The notes under the pieces were generated by a model. That model saw only the letters and a program-made list of their open reading frames with translations, was not told where the DNA came from and did no database searches. The position numbers and the translations under genes are program-made. Positions 26,490 to 38,863 of a DNA stretch of 64,000 nt are shown in pieces (the stretch's first letter is position 1; every line of letters begins with the position of its first letter). The DNA comes from Streptomyces sp. Q6 (GTDB taxonomy: Bacteria > Actinomycetota > Actinomycetes > Streptomycetales > Streptomycetaceae): contig NZ_CP146022.1 of the NCBI RefSeq assembly GCF_036967205.1, positions 6,076,001 through 6,140,000 of the forward strand, written 5' to 3'.

Positions 26490-29400
26490 TCACGGGTCGA
26501 GGATGGCGCTATCCCGCAGGCTCCCGCCCAGCTCGAAGGCCTTTCTGTACACCTCGGGGGCGAGCATCCGCCGGATCCGCCGCTCGAGCGGGGTGACGTC
26601 CGGATCGTCCACGATGAGCGTCCCGCGCAGCGCCGACGCGGCGCCGAGGAGTGTCGCGGCCCGCTCGGGCACGTCCGCCCGGGACGCCAGCGCCTCGGCC
26701 ACCTCCGCCCGTTCCAACCCCTGGGTCAGATCGCCGGTCGACAGGGTGCGGGCCTGCGCGAACCAGTCGTCCGCCTCTTCCGTGCGGCCCTGAGCGAGCG
26801 CCGTGCGGCCGAGGCCCAGGAAGATGTGAACGGTCTGGCCCACGCTGTACCAGGAGCGCGCGCTGGTCTCCAGCGCCGCCTCGTAGTGCTCCCGGGCCCG
26901 GGCCGGATCGCCCGACAGGCGCGCCGCGTCGCCCCGGCCCCAGAACGCGCCGGCCACCTTCTCGGGTGCGCCCGCGGCCCGTGCCAGGTCACCCGCCCGC
27001 GCGAAGTCGGCGTCGGCCTCCTCGTAAGCGGCGCTGCGCAGCAGCACGGCCCCGCGTCTGCACAGCAGGTCGGCGGTCTCCTCCGGGGCAGCCAGCTCAC
27101 GGGCGTAGCCGAGCGCTTCGTCGATCAGCTTCAGCGCATGTGCCCGCTCCCCGCGCCAGTCCGCGAACATGCCCAGCTGGTCCAGGGAGTTGGCCATGCC
27201 CCACCGGTCACCGGTCTCCCGAAACCCCTGCAGAGCCTGGGCGAACAGGGCCTCCGCAGCGGCGGGTCGTCCCGCGAACTGCTCCTGGAACCCGAGCCCG
27301 ATACCGAGCAGTGCCCGGCCCCACGGATCGTCGCCGACCTGGGCGCGCACCCGCTCGTCGCGGGAACGCTCGGGACCGACGGCGAGCGTCCACAGCACGA
27401 CGGTGAACGGCAGTCTCAACTGGCGGTCGATCCCGGCCAGCACCCGGTCCGCGCGAGCGAGACGGACCTCGTCGCCGTCACCTGCGACCGCATTGAGCGC
27501 GCAGAGCGCGTACTCCTCCTCCAGACCCGGCGGCGGCTCCGAACCCACCGCGTCGACCAGATCGCGGGCGAGCGACAGACGCTCACCGGCCAGGCCGCGC
27601 AGCCGCCAGAACCACGACAGGGCAGCCATGAGACGCAACCCGTCCGCGGGGGCGCTGCCCACCAGGTGACGCAGAGCGGCGTCCATGTCGGACCGCTCCA
27701 CCGACAGTCTCTCCAGCCAGGGCAGTTGATCGGCCCCGCGCAACCGTGGCTCGGCCTCCTCGGCGAGCCGCAGGAAATACGCCGCGTGAGCGTCCCGTAG
27801 CTCCTCCCGTACGTCGTCGGCGAGGTGCTCGGCGCAGAAGGCGCGGATCGTCTGAAGCATCCGATAGCGGCCCTGGGACGCCTCCAGGAAGGACTTCTCG
27901 GAGAGCGACGCGAGCAGGTCCTCGGGGTAGGGGATGCCGCAGATCGCCTCCACCGCGTCCAGCGTCGCGCCCCCGGACAGGCCTCCGGCGGTGAACACCG
28001 TCAGGCGGCAGGCCAGGTCCCGCTCCTCCACGTCGAGCAGCTCCCAGCTCCACTCCACGACGGCCCGCAGGGTACGGTGCCGGGGCGCCTTCGTGCGATC
28101 CCCGCGTGACAGGACCCGGAAGCGGTCGCCGAGCCGCTCGGCCAGCTCCTCGACGGTGAGTGTCCGTAGTCGGGCGGCGGCCAGCTCGATCGCCAGCGGC
28201 AGCCCGTCGAGCGCCGTGCAGATGGCGTCGATCGCGGCCATGCGCGCGGGCCCGTCCCCGTCGAAGTCCGGCCGTACCGCCGCGGCCCGGTCCCTGAAGA
28301 GCCGCGCCGCCGGACCCGCCTCCAGTGGTGGCACCGGACACAGCGCCTCACCGGTGATGCCCAACGCCTCCCTGCTGGTCGCCAGGATGCGCAGGCCGGG
28401 GCAGGTGGCCAGGAGAAGGCCCGCCGTCCGGGCGGCACCCTCGACCACATGCTCGCAGTTGTCCAGCACCAGCAGGAGGTCACGGCTTTCGAGCGCGGCC
28501 ATGAGCCGCTCGGTGGCGTCCGCGCTCTGTGGACCGCGGAGCCCTTCTCGTACGCCGAGGGCGGAGAGCACCGCGTACGGGACCTGCGCCCCGTCGGCGA
28601 GGGGCGCCAGCTCCACGTAGCAGACGTCCGCGCGGGAGCGGGCCGCCTCGATCGCGAGCCGGGTCTTGCCCGCGCCGCCCGGACCGGTCAGCGTGACCAG
28701 GCGCGCCTCGCCCAGCAGTTCGTCGATCCGGGTCAGTTCGCCCGCGCGCCCCACGAATCGGGTCAGCTGTGCCGGGACCCCGCGTCGGCGCACCGGTTCC
28801 TGCCCCTGCCCCTGAAGCAACTCCAGATGCAGCGCCGCCAGCTCGGGGGACGGGTCGGCGCCCAGCTCCTCGGCGAGGACGCGCCGCGCCTCCTCATAAG
28901 CCCGCAGTGCTTCGGCGGGACGCCCGGCCGCCTGCAACGCACGCATCAGCAGCCCGTAGAGGCGCTCGCTCAGCGGGTGCCGCGCGATCAGCTCCCGCAC
29001 CTCCGCCACCAGGTCCGCGTCGCCGCCCAGTACGAGGTCGGCCTCGATGCGGTCCTGTAGGGCGCCCAATCGCAGCTCTTCCAGGCGCGGCAGGTCACGG
29101 GGAGCCGCCCCGCGCCACAGGGCGAGGCCCTCACGCAGGGCCGCCGCCGCGCGCGCGTGCTCTCCGATGGCCAGTGACTGGCGGCCCTCCCGCGCGAGAC
29201 GCTCGAAACGGTGCAGGTCCACGTCGTCCGGATCGACGACCAGTCGGTATCCGGCGGGGCCCGCCTCGATCTCCAGGCTCAGTCGCTTGCGCAGCCGCGA
29301 GATCTGGGACTGCAAGGCATTGCCCGCGCCGGCCGGGGGGTTCTCGCCGTAGAGATCGTCGATCAGCCGCTCCGGCGAGACGGTCCGGCCCGCGTCCAGG

Positions 29401-29501
29401 AGCAGCAGGGTCAGCAGGGCACGCGGACGCGGCCCGCCGGGATCCAGCGGGCTGCCGTCGAGCGCCCGTACGTCGAGAGGGCCGAGGATGCCGAACCGCA
29501 T
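26490..29501 (-). CDS. SARP/AfsR-type transcriptional regulator with NB-ARC ATPase and TPRs
   Basis: Large regulator of 1003 residues. It starts with an OmpR-like winged helix (FGILGPLDVRALDG, then ISRLRKRL near residues 70-77), continues with a BTAD domain (about 95-245) and an NB-ARC/STAND ATPase with P-loop TGPGGAGKTR near 272-281 and LLLVLDNCEHV (Walker B) near 343-353, and ends in a TPR-like helical region. Such proteins are usually pathway-specific or global activators of secondary metabolism. The ATG at 29501 starts the conserved MRFGILGPL. Upstream in-frame codons run through an octamer repeat and the rpmB terminator, so a longer protein is unlikely. It sits directly in front of the monooxygenase gene. 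Confidence 0.88.
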   Translation of the reverse strand: MRFGILGPLDVRALDGSPLDPGGPRPRALLTLLLLDAGRTVSPERLIDDLYGENPPAGAGNALQSQISRLRKRLSLEIEAGPAGYRLVVDPDDVDLHRFERLAREGRQSLAIGEHARAAAALREGLALWRGAAPRDLPRLEELRLGALQDRIEADLVLGGDADLVAEVRELIARHPLSERLYGLLMRALQAAGRPAEALRAYEEARRVLAEELGADPSPELAALHLELLQGQGQEPVRRRGVPAQLTRFVGRAGELTRIDELLGEARLVTLTGPGGAGKTRLAIEAARSRADVCYVELAPLADGAQVPYAVLSALGVREGLRGPQSADATERLMAALESRDLLLVLDNCEHVVEGAARTAGLLLATCPGLRILATSREALGITGEALCPVPPLEAGPAARLFRDRAAAVRPDFDGDGPARMAAIDAICTALDGLPLAIELAAARLRTLTVEELAERLGDRFRVLSRGDRTKAPRHRTLRAVVEWSWELLDVEERDLACRLTVFTAGGLSGGATLDAVEAICGIPYPEDLLASLSEKSFLEASQGRYRMLQTIRAFCAEHLADDVREELRDAHAAYFLRLAEEAEPRLRGADQLPWLERLSVERSDMDAALRHLVGSAPADGLRLMAALSWFWRLRGLAGERLSLARDLVDAVGSEPPPGLEEEYALCALNAVAGDGDEVRLARADRVLAGIDRQLRLPFTVVLWTLAVGPERSRDERVRAQVGDDPWGRALLGIGLGFQEQFAGRPAAAEALFAQALQGFRETGDRWGMANSLDQLGMFADWRGERAHALKLIDEALGYARELAAPEETADLLCRRGAVLLRSAAYEEADADFARAGDLARAAGAPEKVAGAFWGRGDAARLSGDPARAREHYEAALETSARSWYSVGQTVHIFLGLGRTALAQGRTEEADDWFAQARTLSTGDLTQGLERAEVAEALASRADVPERAATLLGAASALRGTLIVDDPDVTPLERRIRRMLAPEVYRKAFELGGSLRDSAILDP

Positions 29502-29552
29502 GCGCAGAGTCTGGCAGTCGCCACTGACAGTCGTGGCCGGACGGTGGATCTT

Positions 29553-29624
29553 GCCCGAGAGCCCGAGAGCCCGAGAGCCCGAGAGCCCGAGAGCCCGAGA
29601 GCCCGAGAGCCCGAGAGCCCGAGA
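29553..29624. repeat. Nine perfect tandem copies of GCCCGAGA
   Basis: Nine head-to-tail octamers without a mismatch lie 52-123 nt upstream of the SARP regulator start, between it and the rpmB terminator. The unit length is not a multiple of three. The tract sits where the regulator's promoter or leader should be. Confidence 0.95.
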
Positions 29625-29666
29625 TTCGGGACTCGGGATCTCAGGCAGAGAAGGCTCCGGGCATAA

Positions 29667-29700
29667 GAAGAAGCCGGCCCCCGAGGGGACCGGCTTCTTC
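29667..29700 (-). terminator. Hairpin terminator after rpmB
   Basis: GAAGAAGCCGG and CCGGCTTCTTC form a perfect 11-bp stem with an additional inner C/G helix. It lies 36 nt past the rpmB stop on the minus strand and can also act in the other direction. Confidence 0.7.
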
Positions 29701-29735
29701 AAGCAACCAGCTAGGTGGCCGCGCTACGCGTTACG

Positions 29736-30183: not shown

Positions 30184-31877
30184 GTGCCGCAGGTGCCGCA
30201 TGTGCTCGACGTCGTCGCGGTGCGCGCCTGGTGCTCACTCGCCCTGGAAGCCCTCGGCCGCGAGCGCGCGGAGATCGACGCGATCAACGTCTATCCCGTG
30301 GCCGACGGGGACACCGGCACCAATCTGTACCTGACCGTCGAGTCCGCGCATCAAGCCGTGGAAGCGGTCTTCGCCGGCCTTCAGGCGGGCCCGGAGCCCG
30401 CCGTTCCCGCGCTGCCCGAGGTCGTCCGCGCGATGGCTCACGGCGCCCTCATCGGCGCCCGCGGAAACTCGGGGACGATCCTCGCGCAGCTGCTGCGCGG
30501 CATGGCCCAGGTCCTCGCCTCCGACGGCGCGGGTCGTGAGGGAGATCACGCGACCGGGGTCGACTCGGGAGCCCTGCGCCTGGCTCTGCACCGGGCCGCC
30601 GAGTCCGCGCGTGAGGCTGTTGCCCACCCGGTGGAGGGCACCGTCCTCACCGTCGCGACGGCGGCCGCGGCCGCGGCGGCGGGCGTCGACGGCGACTGCG
30701 GGGCCGTCGCCCGCGCCGCCTATGAAGGCGCGTGTGCGGCGCTGGAGGCGACGCCGGAGCAGTTGGCGGTCCTCGGTAGCGCGGGGGTCGTGGACGCGGG
30801 AGGCCGCGGCCTGGTCGCCGTCCTCCGGGCGCTGACCGAGGCCGTCTCCGGGGAGGCGGCGCCGGTGCCCCGCCGTGAGGAGAGCGTCCACGCGCGCGTG
30901 GACGCGCCTTTGGGAACCGAGCCTCTTGAATGCGCCGAGGAGCTGGGTGCCCCGGGGCCCGCCTTCGAGGTCATCTACCTCCTTGAGGCCGACGACCGGC
31001 ACGTCGCCCGGCTGCGGACCCGGCTCGACGCCCTCGGGGACTCCCTGGTCGTCGTGGGCGGGGACGGGCTGTGGAACGTGCACGTGCATGTCGACGACGC
31101 GGGCGCCGCCGTGGAAGCGGGCGTCGAGGCAGGCAGGCCGTACCGCATCCGCATCACGCACTTCGGCCTCGGTGACGCGCACACGGCCCGGTCCTCGGCC
31201 CCGCCGCGCGAGCGGGCGCAGCGGGCCGTCGTGGCCGTCGTGCCGGGCGAGGGGCTCGCCGGTCTGTACGCGGAGGCCGGCGCGACGACCGTGCCCGACC
31301 GGCCCGGCGAACCCCCGCGAGCGGCGAGCTGGTCGACGCGATCCGGCGCGCTCACGCGCGCGAGGTGGTGCTGCTGCCGAACGACGCGGAGCTGCGGCAC
31401 ACCGCGGCGGCCGCCGCCGAGCAGGCCCGCTCCGAGGGCGTACGGGTCGCACTCATCCCGACCCGGTCCGCGGTGCAGGGCATCGCGGCGCTCGCCGTGC
31501 ACGAACCCGACCGGCGCTTCGACGAGGACGTCGTGGCGATGACGTCGGCCGCGGGCGCGACCCGCTACGCCGAGCTCACCGTCGCCGAGCGGCAGTCGTG
31601 GACCATGGCCGGCATCTGCCAGGCCGGAGACGTCCTCGGGCTCATCGACGGCGACGTGGCGGTCATCGGCGGGGAGATCCCGGCGACCGCCCGCACCGTC
31701 CTCGACCGGATGCTCGCCGCGGGCGGCGAGCTGGTCACCCTGGTCCTCGGCGACGACGTACCCGATGAGGTCGCGGACGGCCTCGAACTGCATGTCCGCG
31801 AGACCTACCTGGCCGTGGACACGGTGGTGTACCGGGGCGGACGGCAGTCGGCGCTGATGCTGATCGGCGTCGAGTAG
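30184..31877 (+). CDS. FakA-like DhaL-domain protein (frameshifted in this sequence)
   Basis: DAK2/DhaL-family protein, 564 residues when repaired, of the YloV/FakA type (the kinase half of two-component fatty-acid kinase, or a related dihydroxyacetone-kinase-like ATPase). The Mg-ATP site motif PVADGDTGTN has Asp41 and Asp43, and ARGNSGTILAQLLRG lies near residues 95-109. The C-terminal half (MVLLPNDAELRHTA onward) is the FakA middle/C-terminal domain. The frame breaks at the C5 run 31312-31316. One extra C restores GEPPASGELVDAIRRAH and makes the length 1695 nt. In many bacteria this gene adjoins rpmB and recG. Here an HSP90/TPR pair lies between it and recG. Confidence 0.85.
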
Positions 31878-31893: not shown

Positions 31894-34610
31894 CTACTCC
31901 GCCAGCGCCGCCAGCGCGGCCCGCGCCTCGTCCCGCGCCTCCGTGTCACCGGCCTCGCCGAACGCCGTCACGGCCAGGCTCAGCTGGGCGGCCGTCTCCG
32001 CGGCGGGCGCGTGCCGGGCGAGGAGCTCCGCGAACTGCCGGTGCGTATGGCCGAGTTCGGACCGCAGCGGCTCGCGGTCGGCGTCGTCCGAAGTGAGTGC
32101 CTCCTCGCAGGCGCTGATCGCCGCCGACATGAGCTCACGCTCGTCGTCCGCCGAGGCGGAGTCGAGCCAGGCACGCGCGCGAAGGCACCGCACCACCGCA
32201 TGTATGTGGCCCAGAGCACGCCACAGCTCTCCCGCGCGCGCGTAGGCGCGATCGGCGTCCTCGGTGCGCCCCGCCCGTTCGAGCGCGTCCGCCGCCAGGT
32301 TCGCCAGCATCGCGTGGTCGCGCTGCTCGGGCCAGTGCTGGGCGATCTCCGCGGCCTTCAGCCAGGCCTCGGCGGCCTGAAGGTGCTCCCCGAGGGCACG
32401 GGCGCAGTCGCCGAGCCACCACTGGGCCTGGACGAGGGCGCCCTCGCCGTGGTGCTCGGCCGTCAGGTCGAGCAGCGCCGACTCCAGGACCTCAGCGGCC
32501 TCCGCCGTGCGCTCCTCGCGCAGCAGGTGGCCACCGAGCTGGAAGCGCGCCCAGGCGCCGAGCCCCGCGCTCTCGCCCGCCTCGTCGGCCCAGTGGGCGG
32601 CCTCCAGGGCGTGCGCGGACGCGGGCCCGAACTGTCCGGTGGCGGCGAGGACCTCGGCCAGCTGGAGGTTCAGCTGCGCGGAGCCCACCGGATCCAGGTC
32701 CCCCGCGCCGTGCTCCAGCGCGGCCCGCAGAGCACGCTCGGCGTCCGCCGCGTCGTCCCGCTCGCGGGCGAGGTCCGCCAGGCGGGCCTCGCAGTCCACT
32801 GCCATCCAGGGCCGCCCCGCCGCCACGTGCGCCGCGGCGGCCTCTTCGTAGAGCGCCCTGGCCGCGTCCGCGTCACCGTGGTGCAGCGCGATGTCCCCGA
32901 GCATCGAACGGGCGGAAGCCGCCTGCGAGGCCAGCCGCGGCACCGCCGCGAACGGCTCGGTGAGCGCGAGCAGTTGCCGTGCGCACTCCTCGGCCGCCGC
33001 GATCCCGGTGTCCTCGGAGTGTTCCCGCAGCAGGATCCGCGTACGGCACGACAGAACGGCCGCCGCCGGACGGGCCGCCGTGACGTCGAGGTCCGGCAGG
33101 ACCGCGAGGACTTCCTCGTACGGTTCACGGATCGCGGCGAGCGCCTCTTTGACGCGGCCCGCGTCGGCCATCGCGTACGCGGCACGCGCGCGTGCCGCCC
33201 TGGCCTCGCCCGCGTCGCCGGCCTCCGCGTACAACTCGGCCGCGCGGACGAACAGGTCGGCGCCGTCCTCGGCGCGCATCGCTTCGTAGTCGACGATCTC
33301 GGCACGGTCGCGGGCGGTGAGCTTCAGGCCCTCCGCCTCGGCGGCCCGCGCGGCCGCCTCCCAGGCCCGGCCCGCCACGGGCCCGCCGGTCTCCTCGGAG
33401 AGGCGTCGCGCACGGTCGACCAGAGACGCGGCGTCGCGGGGCTGCTCCGCGGGGGCCGTGGTGACCGGCTTCGCGGGCGCGGCCGTGCGCACGACCCGAA
33501 CGCCGAGCGGCAGCCGCTCCAGAAGGGGCGCTGCGCCATCCGCTGCCGCAGTCGTGTACTCACCCGGTCGGTGCCGTTGCGCTCGTCGAAGCGGGCCGCG
33601 AGGGACAGTGCCTCGCCGCGCGCGTGCACGGCGAGTTCCCCGGCCGTCCAGGAGCGGCCGGCCGGACCGGGGACGCTCTGCTCGCCCAGGCCCAGCTCGG
33701 TCAGCCGGTCCATCACCAGCGCGGTCACACCGAGGAAGTCCATCAGCCCCTGGGGGTTGCCGGTGTCCGTGAAGTAGGCGGGACGCTCCGCCAGCAGCTC
33801 CAGGGCACGCGCCTCGTTGCCTGTCAGGGCGCAGAATTCCACATGCGCCGCGAACGCGCCCCGCATCGACTCCATCCGCCGGACGAGGCGGTAGCCGCGC
33901 AGATGGTTCGCGCGGGCCTCCTCCGGGCGCCCCAGGCGCAGGAGAGGCAACAGCGAGTCGGCAAGGGTGGCGTGCGGCTCGTGGGCGCACGTGTGCTCAC
34001 CCTCCAGGACGGGCCGCCACAGCTCCAGGGCTCGCTCGTCCCTGCGCAGCTCCGACTGGCGGGCACCCTGCCCGTTCAGCTCGCAGGCGTGGCAGTCGGC
34101 CATGTCGTCACGGTCGGCCGCGAGCCACGCCTCGTACGCGCGTGATGCGCGTTCCTCGTCACCTATGTGGTCGGCGACGTAGAACTCGCTCATACGGACG
34201 GCCCGTTCGGAGTGGCCGGCCACTCGGTAGCGGTGCTCCATCTCGCCGAGCCACTTCTCCATGGAGGAGAGCGGAATGTGCGGCTGGCTCAGCATGCCGC
34301 CCGACATCCACTTGAAGACCCAGTGCAGCGAGTGCGTCTCGTACGCGTCGAAGTCCTCGGGGTGTTCGTCCCACATGCGCAGCAGCCGCGCGAAGGGGAC
34401 GAACATCTTGGCCTTCTCGGAGCTGTAGTTGTACATCTGGAGCTGGTGGCCGAGCGCCTCGATGACGGCGAGCGGCTCGCCGAGCTTCTCCGCCTCCGCG
34501 AGCAGCAGCTCCGCGCGGGCGCCCCGCGCCGGGCCCTCGGGCTGCGCGGCGTTCTCCGCCATCGCGCGCCGCAGGCCGTCCAGGTCCATGATTCCGTCGG
34601 TCCCGTTCAT
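31894..34610 (-). CDS. Large TPR protein paired with an HSP90-like gene (frameshifted in this sequence)
   Basis: An all-helical protein of 905 residues when repaired, composed of many degenerate tetratricopeptide repeats (units such as AGRTEDADRAYARAGELW and AAEAWLKAAEIAQHW). I see no catalytic motif, signal peptide or membrane segment. The frame breaks at the C3 run 33563-33565 (plus strand). One added base joins FDERNGTDR to GEYTTAAADGAAPLLERL and gives 2718 nt. The ATG at 34610 overlaps the stop of the HSP90-like gene (ATGA), so translation is coupled. TPR proteins are classic partners of HSP90, which suggests a co-chaperone or client-adaptor role (inference). It is convergent with the fakA-like gene, 16 nt apart. 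Confidence 0.8.
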
Positions 34611-36454
34611 CGGGCGTCGTCCCTTCCGGTGCCGGGGTGCGTGGCCCATTCCAGGAGGCCGATGAAGGAGCGGTTCAGGAGCGCCGAGTCGGCTGGGCGC
34701 AGCGGGCGCTGGGCCATCAGCAGGGCCTGTCCGTACAGCGCCTCGGCGGCCGTGCCGATCAGCTCCGGGTCGGCGAGCGAACTCACCCGGCGGATCAGCG
34801 GGTTGAGGTGGTTGAGGACGAGCCGCGCGCGGGGCGAACTGCCGCGCAGCGAGCCCAGAATGCCCGCCCACAGATCGTCGGCCTGCGCCTCGGCATCCGC
34901 GCGCGCCTGCTCGTGCCGGGCGGCACGGTCGTCCAGGTGCAGCGCGGGCACCGTCAGCGGATGGAAGGCGCGCAGCGCGACGTCGCAGCCCAGCGGGTCG
35001 AGCCGGGCCCGCGCGGCCGACAGGAACGCGGCCAGAGCCAGTTCCTCGGCCGGGTCGACGCTGTCCAGGTGCGCGGTCACGGTGTCCGCGTCCAGCTCGG
35101 CGACCACAGTGCCGGGGCGTACGGACGGCAGCGCTTCTACGAGGTCGCTGTCATACGTATAACCCCCGTTGACGACGCCGATCCCCTGCGCGGAGGCGAT
35201 CGGCGCCACCTGCCGGTACTCCTCCACGGTCCGCGTGAAGTGCACGACAGGGTGGCGCTGAGCGAATTCCTCCAGGGAGAGCTGCCCGTCCGTCGTCTCG
35301 AACGGCAGCCACGGAAGCATCGTGCGCAGCATCTCCTTGTCGTGCCGCGCAAGGGACTTGACCCCCAGGTGGTGCACCGACAAGAAGGCGGCCAGCCGCT
35401 CGGGGTCACCGGCCACGAGCGACGTCAGCCACTCCCGGATGCGCTCGCCCAGGGCCTCCCGTACGGCGGCCAGGGTCTCGTCCTCGTACAGGGACTCGCG
35501 CGACGCGGTGGGGCGCAGGCTGTCCGTGTCGATGACGCAGCGCACGAAGAAGGCCCAGTCGGGCAGGAGCTGCTCGGCCCGCTCCGTGAGAAGCATGCCC
35601 TTCAGGTGCACCCGATGACCCGCGCGCTGTGCGGGGCTCACCGCCTGCGGCAGCACGTGTGCCACGCCCCGGATGCCGGCCACCGGCACGTCCAGGTCGA
35701 TCGAGTCCAGCGGCGTGAAGCCGAACAGGTCGTGGCAGTGCCGGGCCAGGGCCACCCGGCGCGCGGCAGGGCTCGGATAGTCGCGGTTCCAGGCGGCGGG
35801 CAGGTCCGTCACCGCGGCCTCGCCGACGCGCACGTCGTACGGGAGCAGCGCGCCGAAGTCGCGGGCCAGGGACAGCACCCGTTCCTCGGCCAGCCAGTCG
35901 GCGGCGCCCGCGCGTGCCTCCAGGTGCACGGTCGTACCGGGTTCGACGCGAGCCGAGTCCGGGAGCGTACGGACCGTGTACGAGCCGTCGTCGCGGGCCG
36001 TCCACTCGACGGGCGGGGCGTCCGGCGTGCGGGCGCTGCGGCTGACCACGCGGATCCGCTCGGCGACGACGAAACAGGCGAGCAGGCCGATGCCGAACTG
36101 GCCCAGGAAGTCGGCGCGGGCCGACTCCAGGCCGTCGCCGCGCTTGGAGCTGCGGCCGATCGTGGCGAGCAGCTGGTGCACGTCCGTCTCGGTCAGACCG
36201 ATGCCGGAGTCCTCGACCCGCAGTGCCCCGCCCTCGGCGAACAGGCGCACGGTGGCGGGGGAGTCGGGCTGCTCGGCGCGGCGGGCGGTGATGGCGTCCA
36301 CCGCGTTCTGCAGCAGCTCGCGCAGGTAGACCTTGGGGCTGGAGTACAGGTGGTGGGAGAGCAGGTCGACGAGACCGCGCAGGTCGACCTGGAACGTGTG
36401 CGGCGGGTGCGGCGCCTGGGCGCCGTGCGCATTCTGAGAAGTTTGGGAATCCAT
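34607..36454 (-). CDS. HSP90 family protein
   Basis: HtpG-like ATPase of 615 residues. The GHKL nucleotide site is recognisable: RELLQNAVDAI (Glu46, Asn50, Asp54), EDSGIGLT near residues 81-88, and GQFGIGLLACFVVAE near 118-132. The middle domain keeps LRPTASRESL, matching the LNVSRE segment whose Arg triggers ATP hydrolysis. The overall sequence is divergent from housekeeping HtpG, the C-terminal dimerisation part is shorter, and there is no EEVD tail. The ATG at 36454 precedes a His/Pro-rich leader. The stop overlaps the TPR gene's start (ATGA). Housekeeping htpG is elsewhere in Streptomyces genomes, so this is a second, specialised HSP90. Confidence 0.88.
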   Translation of the reverse strand: MDSQTSQNAHGAQAPHPPHTFQVDLRGLVDLLSHHLYSSPKVYLRELLQNAVDAITARRAEQPDSPATVRLFAEGGALRVEDSGIGLTETDVHQLLATIGRSSKRGDGLESARADFLGQFGIGLLACFVVAERIRVVSRSARTPDAPPVEWTARDDGSYTVRTLPDSARVEPGTTVHLEARAGAADWLAEERVLSLARDFGALLPYDVRVGEAAVTDLPAAWNRDYPSPAARRVALARHCHDLFGFTPLDSIDLDVPVAGIRGVAHVLPQAVSPAQRAGHRVHLKGMLLTERAEQLLPDWAFFVRCVIDTDSLRPTASRESLYEDETLAAVREALGERIREWLTSLVAGDPERLAAFLSVHHLGVKSLARHDKEMLRTMLPWLPFETTDGQLSLEEFAQRHPVVHFTRTVEEYRQVAPIASAQGIGVVNGGYTYDSDLVEALPSVRPGTVVAELDADTVTAHLDSVDPAEELALAAFLSAARARLDPLGCDVALRAFHPLTVPALHLDDRAARHEQARADAEAQADDLWAGILGSLRGSSPRARLVLNHLNPLIRRVSSLADPELIGTAAEALYGQALLMAQRPLRPADSALLNRSFIGLLEWATHPGTGRDDAR

Positions 36455-36646
36455 CGTCGCTGCGCCGGTGGGGGGACGGGCGACGGCGCGGGTCGGGCGG
36501 TCCCGCAAGGTGACCGCGATCAGGGTCGGAGCCGGTCATCCTAGGACCGCCAGGCCCCTTCCGACCAGCGGATAAGGCCATTCTCGCCGCGCGGACACCG
36601 GGGATGTGCGCGGGACGTGCGGAGATTGTCAGTGGCGTGGTGTGCA

Positions 36647-38863
36647 ATGGATCTCGTGCCTGTGCTCGAAGAACCGCTGAAGAAAGTGCTCGGCCCACCC
36701 ACCGCCAAGGTGATGGCCGAGCACCTAGGCCTGCACACCGTCGGTGACCTGCTCCACCACTACCCGCGCAGATACGCGGAGCGCGGTGAGCTCACGCGCC
36801 TCGCGGAGCTGCCGCTGGACGAGCACGTCACCGTCGTCGCCCAGGTCGCGACCGCCCGCGTCCTGAGGTTCAACGGAGGCAGCGGCCAGCGCCTCGAAGT
36901 CACCATCACGGACGGCAGCGGCCAGATCCAGCTCGTCTTCTTCGGCAAGGGCATCCACAAGCCGCACAAGGACCTGCTGCCCGGCACGCGCGCGATGTTC
37001 GCCGGCAAGGTCTCGGTCTTCAACCGGAAGATGCAACTGGCGCACCCCGCCTACCAGTTGCTGACCGCCGAATCCACCGAGGACGCGGCCGAGGCCGTCG
37101 GGTCCTGGGCCGGTGCCCTGCTGCCGATCTACCCGGCCACCGCCAAGCTGGAGTCCTGGAAGATCGCCAAGGCCGTCGACCTGGTGCTGCCCAGTGCCCA
37201 GGAAGCCCTCGACCCGCTGCCCGACTCCCTGCGTGACGGCCGCGGCCTGGTCCCGCTCCCCGAAGCCCTGATCAAGATCCACCGACCGCACACGAAGGCC
37301 GACATCGCCGACGCGCGCGCCCGCCTCAAGTGGGACGAGGCCTTCGTCCTCCAAGTCGCCCTCGCCAGGCGGCGCTTCGCCGACACCCAGCTGACCGCCG
37401 TCGCCCGTGTCCCGAAGCCGGACGGACTGCTCACGGCCTTCGACGCGAAGCTGCCGTTCACGCTGACGGACGGCCAGCAGAAGGTCTCCAAGGAGATCTT
37501 CGACGACCTCGCCACCGAGCATCCGATGCACCGGCTGCTCCAGGGCGAGGTGGGTTCCGGCAAGACGATGGTGGCCCTGCGCGCGATGCTCGCCGTCGTC
37601 GACGCCGGGGGACAGGCCGCGATGCTCGCCCCCACCGAGGTCCTCGCCCAGCAGCACCACCGCTCGATCACCGAGATGATGGGCGAGCTGGCGCAGGCGG
37701 GCATGCTCGGCGGCGCCGAGCACTCCACCAAGGTCGTCCTGCTCACCGGTTCGATGGGCACCGCCGCCCGCAAGCAGGCGCTGCTCGACCTGATCACCGG
37801 CGAGGCCGGCGTCGTCATCGGTACGCACGCCCTGATCGAGGACAAGGTGCAGTTCCACGATCTTGGCCTGGTCGTCGTCGACGAGCAGCACCGGTTCGGC
37901 GTGGAGCAGCGCGACGCCCTGCGCTCCAAGGGCAAGCAGCCGCCCCACCTCCTGGTCATGACCGCGACACCGATCCCGCGCACCGTAGCCATGACCGTCT
38001 TCGGCGACCTGGAGACCTCGGTCCTCGACCAGCTCCCGGCCGGACGCTCACCGATCGCCAGCCATGTCGTGCCCGCCGCCGACAAGCCGCACTTCCTCGC
38101 CCGCGCGTGGGAGCGCGTCCGGGAGGAGGTCGGCAAGGGACACCAGGCGTACGTGGTCTGCCCCCGGATCGGCGACGACGAGGACGACAAGCCCAAGAAG
38201 GGCAAGGCCGCTGCCAAGAAGAAGTCCGCCGAGGACGAGGCCGAGAAGCGGCCGCCGCTCGCCGTCCTCGACGTGGCGCAGGAGCTCGCGAGCGGACCGC
38301 TCCAGGGACTCAAGGTCGAGGTGCTGCACGGCAGGATGCAGCCCGACGACAAGGACGCCGTGATGCGCCGCTTCGCCGCCGGTGACACGGATGTCCTGGT
38401 GGCGACGACGGTCATCGAGGTCGGGGTGAACGTGCCGAACGCGACGGCCATGGTGATCATGGACGCCGACCGCTTCGGTGTCTCCCAGCTCCACCAGCTG
38501 CGCGGCCGCGTCGGCCGTGGCTCCGCCGCCGGACTGTGCCTCCTGGTCACCGAGATGCCCGAGGCCAGCCCCGCGCGGGCCCGGCTCGGCGCCGTCGCCT
38601 CCACCCTCGACGGGTTCGAGCTGTCCCGTATCGACCTGGAGCAGCGCCGCGAGGGCGATGTCCTCGGACAGGCCCAGTCCGGGGTGCGCTCCTCCCTGCG
38701 GATGCTCGCCGTCATCGAGGACGAGGAGATCATCGCCGAGGCCCGCGAGGAGGCGACCAGGGTCGTCGCGGCCGACCCGGACCTCGACCGCCTGCCCGGC
38801 CTGCGCACGGCGCTCGACGCCCTCCTGGACGAGGAGCGTGAGCAGTACCTCGACAAGGGCTGA
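36647..38863 (+). CDS. recG: ATP-dependent DNA helicase RecG
   Basis: Superfamily 2 helicase (738 residues) that remodels stalled replication forks and Holliday junctions. It has an N-terminal wedge/OB region, Walker A GEVGSGKT near residues 300-307, the DEQH box (VVVDEQHRFGVEQR) near 410-423, TATPIPRT near 441-448, and the C-terminal QLRGRVGRG motif. A Lys/Glu-rich linker (PKKGKAAAKKKSAEDEAEK, about residues 516-534) sits between helicase domains and is longer than in most RecG. The ATG at 36647 starts the conserved MDLVPVLEEPL. The GTG at 36656 is an alternative. It is divergent from the HSP90-like gene. Confidence 0.95.
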   Translation: MDLVPVLEEPLKKVLGPPTAKVMAEHLGLHTVGDLLHHYPRRYAERGELTRLAELPLDEHVTVVAQVATARVLRFNGGSGQRLEVTITDGSGQIQLVFFGKGIHKPHKDLLPGTRAMFAGKVSVFNRKMQLAHPAYQLLTAESTEDAAEAVGSWAGALLPIYPATAKLESWKIAKAVDLVLPSAQEALDPLPDSLRDGRGLVPLPEALIKIHRPHTKADIADARARLKWDEAFVLQVALARRRFADTQLTAVARVPKPDGLLTAFDAKLPFTLTDGQQKVSKEIFDDLATEHPMHRLLQGEVGSGKTMVALRAMLAVVDAGGQAAMLAPTEVLAQQHHRSITEMMGELAQAGMLGGAEHSTKVVLLTGSMGTAARKQALLDLITGEAGVVIGTHALIEDKVQFHDLGLVVVDEQHRFGVEQRDALRSKGKQPPHLLVMTATPIPRTVAMTVFGDLETSVLDQLPAGRSPIASHVVPAADKPHFLARAWERVREEVGKGHQAYVVCPRIGDDEDDKPKKGKAAAKKKSAEDEAEKRPPLAVLDVAQELASGPLQGLKVEVLHGRMQPDDKDAVMRRFAAGDTDVLVATTVIEVGVNVPNATAMVIMDADRFGVSQLHQLRGRVGRGSAAGLCLLVTEMPEASPARARLGAVASTLDGFELSRIDLEQRREGDVLGQAQSGVRSSLRMLAVIEDEEIIAEAREEATRVVAADPDLDRLPGLRTALDALLDEEREQYLDKG

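Follow-up and report, generated by a model that had tools for sequence, protein, structure and literature searches.

An HSP90-type ATPase and a TPR protein in overlapping frames

We analyzed a stretch of 64,000 nucleotides from Streptomyces sp. Q6 (contig NZ_CP146022.1, positions 6,076,001 to 6,140,000 of the forward strand; hereafter the window, in whose numbering all coordinates are given), in which a gene for an HSP90-family ATPase overlaps a gene for a tetratricopeptide repeat (TPR) protein (Table 1). The N-terminal domain of this partner protein is hereafter called TPRn. An initial annotation made from the letters alone had reported an ATGA overlap of the two genes and had placed them between a fakA-like gene and recG; both statements are confirmed, the first flank being fakA/DAK2-like.

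Table 1 Features of the HSP90/TPR locus in window coordinates (ORF, open reading frame; aa, amino acids).
Feature	Position	Strand	Basis
fakA/YloV (DAK2) gene, split in two frames (30184-31542, 31365-31877)	30184..31877	plus	ORFs, family matches
C-terminal TPR half of partner, in another frame than TPRn	31894..33510	minus	ORF; TPR_12 at 23.1 bits, below cut-off
N-terminal partner domain TPRn, complete, 362 aa to frame break	33525..34610	minus	ORF, alignment, model
Third conserved Cys, TPRn residue 208	33987..33989	minus	kept in 111/117 domains
DCHACE motif, TPRn residues 172-177	34080..34097	minus	D, C, A, C, E invariant in 11 rows
ATGA overlap, HSP90 stop/partner start	34607..34610	minus	sequence
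HSP90-family ATPase, PRK14083 type	34607..36454	minus	615-aa ORF
recG, intact	36617..38863	plus	ORF; present in 59/61 genus genomes

By sequence comparison, the HSP90 gene is a real member of the PRK14083 subfamily and distinct from HtpG. Its product matched the NCBIfam model NF010683 (PRK14083, "HSP90 family protein") over the full length with 860.8 bits against a cut-off of 455, whereas the HtpG model NF003555 gave 174 bits, below its cut-off of 371. All three parts of the HSP90 superfamily architecture are present, namely the ATPase (residues ~20–180), the middle domain (~229–450) and the C-terminal dimerization domain (~468–605), with rough bounds taken from a model. Glu46, Asn50, Asp53, Asp82, Gly84 and Gly86 in the ATP site and Arg319 in the middle domain, which correspond to the generally known GHKL ATP-site residues (Glu, Asn, Asp, DxGxG) and the catalytic Arg, are kept in 52 family rows. 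They are also common to 23 HtpG-type sequences, a class comprising those below the PRK14083 cut-off or 25–29% identical to P0001 and not assigned by the HtpG model, while 40 positions are kept in at least 92% of the 52 family rows yet in at most 10% of the 23 HtpG-type rows. Examples of family-specific positions are N429, Y432, C490, F497 and P499. The annotated length, ATP site and middle-domain Arg thus stand, and only the numbering of one residue had to be changed (Asp53, not Asp54). On whether this is the only HtpG of the strain the answer is divided: it is the sole match to Pfam HSP90 (PF00183) in the 8.95-Mb host genome, but it is a PRK14083 protein by model and not an HtpG. In five other genomes of one sample (G013, G186, G251, G293 and G304), a PRK14083 member is accompanied by another HSP90 that scores lower. 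The protein ends in ...TGRDDAR, in agreement with the reported absence of an EEVD tail, and the C-terminal tails vary among the 8 family rows compared.

The AlphaFold2 model of TPRn is an all-helical superhelix of helix-turn-helix repeats (pLDDT 95.8, pTM 0.92), that is, a predicted TPR fold. A Pfam and NCBIfam scan of the window TPRn piece returned zero matches; neither database holds a dedicated family for TPRn, the PRK14083 model covers the HSP90 only, and other partners match generic TPR repeats at most. TPRn carries a signature, DCxACE...C...P plus FDxRN, in which the two Cys of DCxACE are kept in 112 and 111 of 117 TPRn domains; in the model the three conserved Cys sit at loops preceding neighbouring helices. 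The best structural matches were a subunit of APC/C (chain O), which we take to be APC5, and MalT domain III, with NprR and Rap also among the neighbours.

The partner had been annotated as a giant all-TPR protein of 905 aa, for which there is no single open frame. The frame opening with the ATG at 34610 ends at a stop at 33324 after 428 aa, and the reading goes on in another frame from 33510 to 31894, so that the frame breaks near 33510–33530, directly after a complete TPRn of ~350 aa. In the closest relative found (L034; HSP90 94% identical), the fakA and TPR genes each lie in one frame, and the partner is a single 892-aa reading above the TPR_12 cut-off. Compared with this relative, the fakA and TPR genes of the window each contain a single indel run of a length not divisible by three, and no such run was found in HSP90, recG or rsmD. 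Because two such events lie only ~2.2 kb apart, assembly errors are the likeliest cause of the frame breaks. True mutations, with a real loss of the C-terminal half of the partner, are conceivable as well, since the break follows a complete TPRn and the TPR gene of G013 (L043; 565 aa) likewise shifts frame on passing from its N-terminal to its C-terminal half.

The large size of the partner is moreover limited to Actinomycetota; elsewhere complete partners are bare TPRn domains of 311–385 aa, for example of 352 aa in Cohnella sp. GbtcB17 (L110) and Paenibacillus curdlanolyticus (L113). Within the genus, all 37 loci compared had a match to TPRn and 10 of them had none to the C-terminal half at 1e-5, suggesting that the C-terminal half diverges faster than TPRn. 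In Actinomadura (L187), the TPR gene is also short or frame-changing past a complete or mostly complete N-terminal domain.

The HSP90 and TPRn genes occur together within the genus

Across 61 genomes of the genus, we found 44 places with a PRK14083-type HSP90 and 43 with TPRn, and all 43 TPRn genes adjoin an HSP90; the lone unpaired HSP90 (G028) is a fragment that lies where a contig ends. The count of 44 includes hits with at least 60% identity, takes two pieces in G010 as one and keeps the G028 fragment; it excludes a 64-aa partial match in G012 and hits of 25–39% identity, which are HtpG-type or ATPase-only. The pair is present in 38 genomes and neither gene in 22 (Fisher p ~1e-15). The initial annotation had named independent occurrence of the two genes as the observation that would speak against a dedicated pair, and no orphan TPRn was found in any of the 61 genomes.

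The fakA and recG genes lie on one contig in 54 genomes, and the pair stands between them in 16 of these. The distance from the FakA middle domain to recG is 5.4–8.6 kb with the pair and 0.7–1.3 kb at the 38 empty sites; 18 of the empty-site genomes carry the pair elsewhere and 20 lack it altogether. Since the site is filled in some genomes and empty in others, HSP90/TPRn is, as judged from these genomes, an accessory pair at a core site, which agrees with the proposed cassette inserted in a core locus. The CIRCE heat-shock operator had no match in the window, two matches to the HAIR operator lay elsewhere in the window at chance level, and neither a sigma-70-like promoter nor a terminator was found at 36400–36760.

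The pairing extends over about nine phyla

To other bacteria we turned with a search in which at least 596 stretches matched and 554 of these were confirmed; the best 80, ranked by similarity to a Paenibacillus HSP90 and forming no census, are hereafter the named loci. They span Bacillota, Planctomycetota, Acidobacteriota, Myxococcota, Bacteroidota, Deinococcota, Desulfobacterota, Pseudomonadota and Actinomycetota, with phylum names resting on record titles and general knowledge. TPRn lies directly downstream on the same strand in 74 of the 80, including partners cut by a contig end (L123, L124, L140, L164) and those with a broken-looking frame or a weak match (L165, L187, L163). Taken from the in-frame start nearest to the HSP90 stop, a choice that biases towards short distances, the offset of the partner is −11 to +15 bases in 70 of the 74 (−4 in 28, −1 in 18) and +24, +49, +203 and +772 in the remaining four; by the same choice, −4 is found in 19 of 37 genus loci. 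The pairing, seen at 43 of 44 genus places and again at 74 of 80 loci of other bacteria, is by these counts more than chance, and the dedicated HSP90/TPR pair of the initial annotation is borne out. HtpG-type loci differ in this respect: no TPRn was found in the flanks of 23 of them (flanks of at most ~1.5 kb for 20).

The co-occurrence does not depend on adjacency. In a planctomycete-centred sample of 198 genomes, TPRn was found in six, all of which have a full-length HSP90 (Fisher p ~9e-11); the seventh HSP90 carrier, G538, has contig-edge fragments only. Here 16 HSP90 matches passed E 1e-60, of which six at 563–831 bits and G538 were counted and nine partial ones (206–284 bits) omitted. In three of the six TPRn-bearing genomes the two genes are not adjacent in the assembly, lying on different contigs in G355 and G509 and at least 8 kb apart in G467, and in G439 TPRn precedes the HSP90. 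Because the separated genes of G355, G509 and G467 are still found together, the co-occurrence outlasts the loss of adjacency. This bears on the view that two housekeeping-like genes merely share an operon without working together: operon neighbours do often co-occur, but here the co-occurrence persists where the genes are apart, the pairing spans about nine phyla, and no third family listed exceeds 4 of 90 neighbours (see below), so that we give ordinary linkage very little credence.

The trees of the two proteins are also correlated. For 107 pairs, their pairwise distances correlate with r=0.945; for the 36 genus pairs alone r is 0.981 and for 68 named loci 0.913, and none of 999 permutations reached the observed values. 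The correlation supports a stable partnership and not contact, because shared host ancestry contributes to it. Natural HSP90–TPRn fusions were absent among the ORFs scanned. Tandem TPRn genes stand beside one HSP90 in Listeria (two, L104), Ruminococcus (three, L179) and Myroides (four, L173).

Genes around the pair

At 76 of the 107 pairs, the flanking genes were picked by a rough ORF rule, after 15 pairs at the fakA–recG site and 16 near-duplicates had been dropped; 106 neighbours were found and 90 scanned, and the families listed are 25 of 140 for Pfam and 25 of 59 for PADLOC. Among the Pfam families listed, no third gene recurs in more than 4 of the 90 flanking genes, the commonest being GGDEF and periplasmic-binding families with 4 each (L175 has both). 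These numbers bear on the main rival of a co-chaperone role for TPRn, in which the TPR protein is instead a dedicated client or effector that the HSP90 folds, holds or activates, and itself does the work, such as sensing a ligand or binding a regulator. The tandem TPRn copies beside a single HSP90 and the sensory look of the TPRn fold would suit such a role. Outside Actinomycetota, however, the partner consists of TPRn alone and carries no effector domain, no effector gene recurs nearby among the families listed, and the conserved signature sits in TPRn itself; we consider a client or effector unlikely, though a serious contender.

Could the pair act in anti-phage defence, as the initial annotation had offered among its options? 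Its uneven spread through the genus (38 of 61 genomes), its location on some plasmids and the similarity of its ATPase region to TmtA of PADLOC would be in keeping with such a role, as would a Pseudanabaena plasmid relative that has a weakly TIR-like region and adjoins a TIR gene. The PADLOC matches of the HSP90 are however confined to the ATPase region (best TmtA, E 7e-9 for the window and 1.8e-15 for Listeria), and five TPR partners, including that of L034 and excluding the broken window gene, had no match, so that in no listed system did both proteins match. No defence gene recurs among the 90 flanking genes: the PADLOC families listed reach 2 of 90 each, and these look like generic protein-kinase matches, because Pfam Pkinase also has 2 members. 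A single-protein query of viral contigs confirmed no relative. A phage collection gave 33 records, of which the 20 listed have 23–38% identity; three records cover at least 80% of the HSP90 query and are unannotated pieces of 1.6–6.6 kb. With nothing specific from PADLOC for the pair or, among the families listed, for its 90 neighbours, and no positive support from flanking genes, we reject the defence module, which we regard as highly improbable.

Several single observations on these surroundings are recorded here. An HSP90-like stretch with ~23% identity over 58% of the query is present in 15 records from Prevotella phages, with Lak phages among the entries listed. The Pseudanabaena plasmid (L106, 9932-12565) encodes a PRK14083-like HSP90 of 383 bits, below the cut-off, whose C-terminal extension weakly resembles the TIR of CAP12/Pycsar; a TIR gene lies beside it and a TPR gene one further, and this may possibly be a defence derivative of the HSP90/TPR pairing. 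Three loci from rumen or gut Oscillospiraceae and Ruminococcus (L161, L175, L188) have a gene of ~275 aa between two TPRn copies; in L161 and L175 at least, the N-terminus of its product resembles MazE/PrlF antitoxins (MazE_antitoxin is found in 3 of the 90 neighbours). In Corallococcus an ORF after the pair (L127, 7164-7535) matches Pfam Ntox16. The recG gene has no insert in the window. In ten genomes (G002, G009, G011, G013, G016, G018, G022, G038, G039, G046), the RecG match is interrupted near residue 290–319 by ~0.8–1.0 kb that keeps to one long open frame, much like an intein. At ~29550–29630 of the window, the N-terminal reading of the minus-strand ORF 26490-29702 contains a tandem peptide repeat, SRALGLSG, in translation only.

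Relation to known HSP90 systems

In eukaryotes, HSP90 works with TPR co-chaperones such as Hop, FKBP51/52, PP5 and Tom70. The pair described here is alike by analogy, in that an HSP90 would work with a TPR protein, and differs in that the HSP90 has no EEVD and the partner is a longer superhelix encoded beside it. Among bacterial proteins, the window HSP90 resembles Group C HTPG, the second bacterial HSP90 group, which Chen et al. 2006 (PMC1525184) describe from Actinobacteria, Firmicutes, gamma-proteobacteria, Spirochaetales and Bacteroidetes, and in which HTPG2, the second HTPG of S. coelicolor, has 615 aa. It is probably a Group C HTPG, as judged from the agreement in length and phylum range. 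The term "TPR" does not occur in the text searched, and among openly licensed PMC papers we recognized no description of an HSP90/TPRn pair. The PRK14083 subfamily is already named in NCBIfam; the pairing with TPRn reaches well beyond Actinobacteria.

A similar arrangement is seen in P. aeruginosa and Xanthomonas, where an HSP90-like ATPase is directly followed by a TPR protein of 764–774 aa; the P. aeruginosa HSP90 scores 293 bits, under the PRK14083 cut-off. We presume the P. aeruginosa pair to be PA1068 (HSP90-like) and PA1069 (the TPR partner). According to PMC4957987, the PA1069 transcript of PAO1 goes down after heat and htpG goes up. Together with the conserved Cys cluster and the structural resemblance to MalT domain III, NprR and Rap, this fits a stress or peptide sensor; TPRn would bind a small ligand, like MalT and members of the Rap/NprR group do, and the HSP90 would reset it. 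We find this explanation improbable. PA1069 is also listed among proteins found with P. aeruginosa BatR (PMC13411936), and PMC6901971 reports signs of selection at lmo0941, with its function given as unknown.

A proposed two-gene chaperone module

Since many distantly related bacteria have the pair and its two genes hardly ever occur one without the other there, HSP90 and TPRn are probably a two-part chaperone machine. The more specific proposal, that they form a two-gene chaperone module in which TPRn serves a second bacterial HSP90 as its dedicated co-chaperone or adaptor, is the one we favour, with slightly better than even confidence. The first gene encodes a full three-domain PRK14083 HSP90 ATPase, and the second opens with the TPRn of ~350 aa. 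The two are probably translated together, because the start of TPRn mostly overlaps or abuts the HSP90 stop. TPRn would then bind the HSP90 directly through a surface other than an EEVD tail, control its ATP cycle and bring clients to it; the three conserved Cys may make up a metal or redox site through which the partner is switched, and in Actinomycetota the added, fast-diverging C-terminal TPR half probably selects lineage-specific clients.

Several observations weigh against this module. The window HSP90 lacks the very EEVD tail that classic TPR co-chaperones bind, and any two genes inherited together should show correlated trees. Among the named loci, no TPRn is found near the HSP90 of L136, L168 and L169, TPRn lies 410 bases off on the opposite strand in L145 and upstream in L177, and a whole-genome search found no TPRn in the genome of L143, where the HSP90 locus ends at a contig edge. 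In favour of the module, however, six of the seven exceptional or contig-edge genomes searched in this way do encode TPRn, including those of L136, L168 and L169. On the other side, the three Cys are absent from 5, 6 and 6 of the 117 domains. The P. aeruginosa/Xanthomonas partner is not claimed as a TPRn homologue (hhalign E 0.014, probability 3%), and no HSP90 was found within 6 kb on either side of a Nonomuraea relative of the P. aeruginosa-type partner.

Taken to its full extent, the co-chaperone module would mean that bacteria of many phyla have a second HSP90 machine whose TPR co-chaperone is obligate and co-translated, is possibly switched by a metal- or redox-bound Cys cluster, works without an EEVD and has gained a fast-evolving, client-selecting half in Actinomycetota. 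We put this forward tentatively, at somewhat less than an even chance. If it is true, the pairing of HSP90 with TPR co-chaperones is not a eukaryotic invention, and bacteria have an independently shaped form of it without EEVD. The pairing would show a route to HSP90–TPR cooperation without that tail and would suggest a function for TPRn, a domain unnamed in Pfam and NCBIfam. With a TPR partner that is nearly obligate, an HSP90 spread across phyla would also offer a compact two-protein system for direct tests of co-chaperone action.

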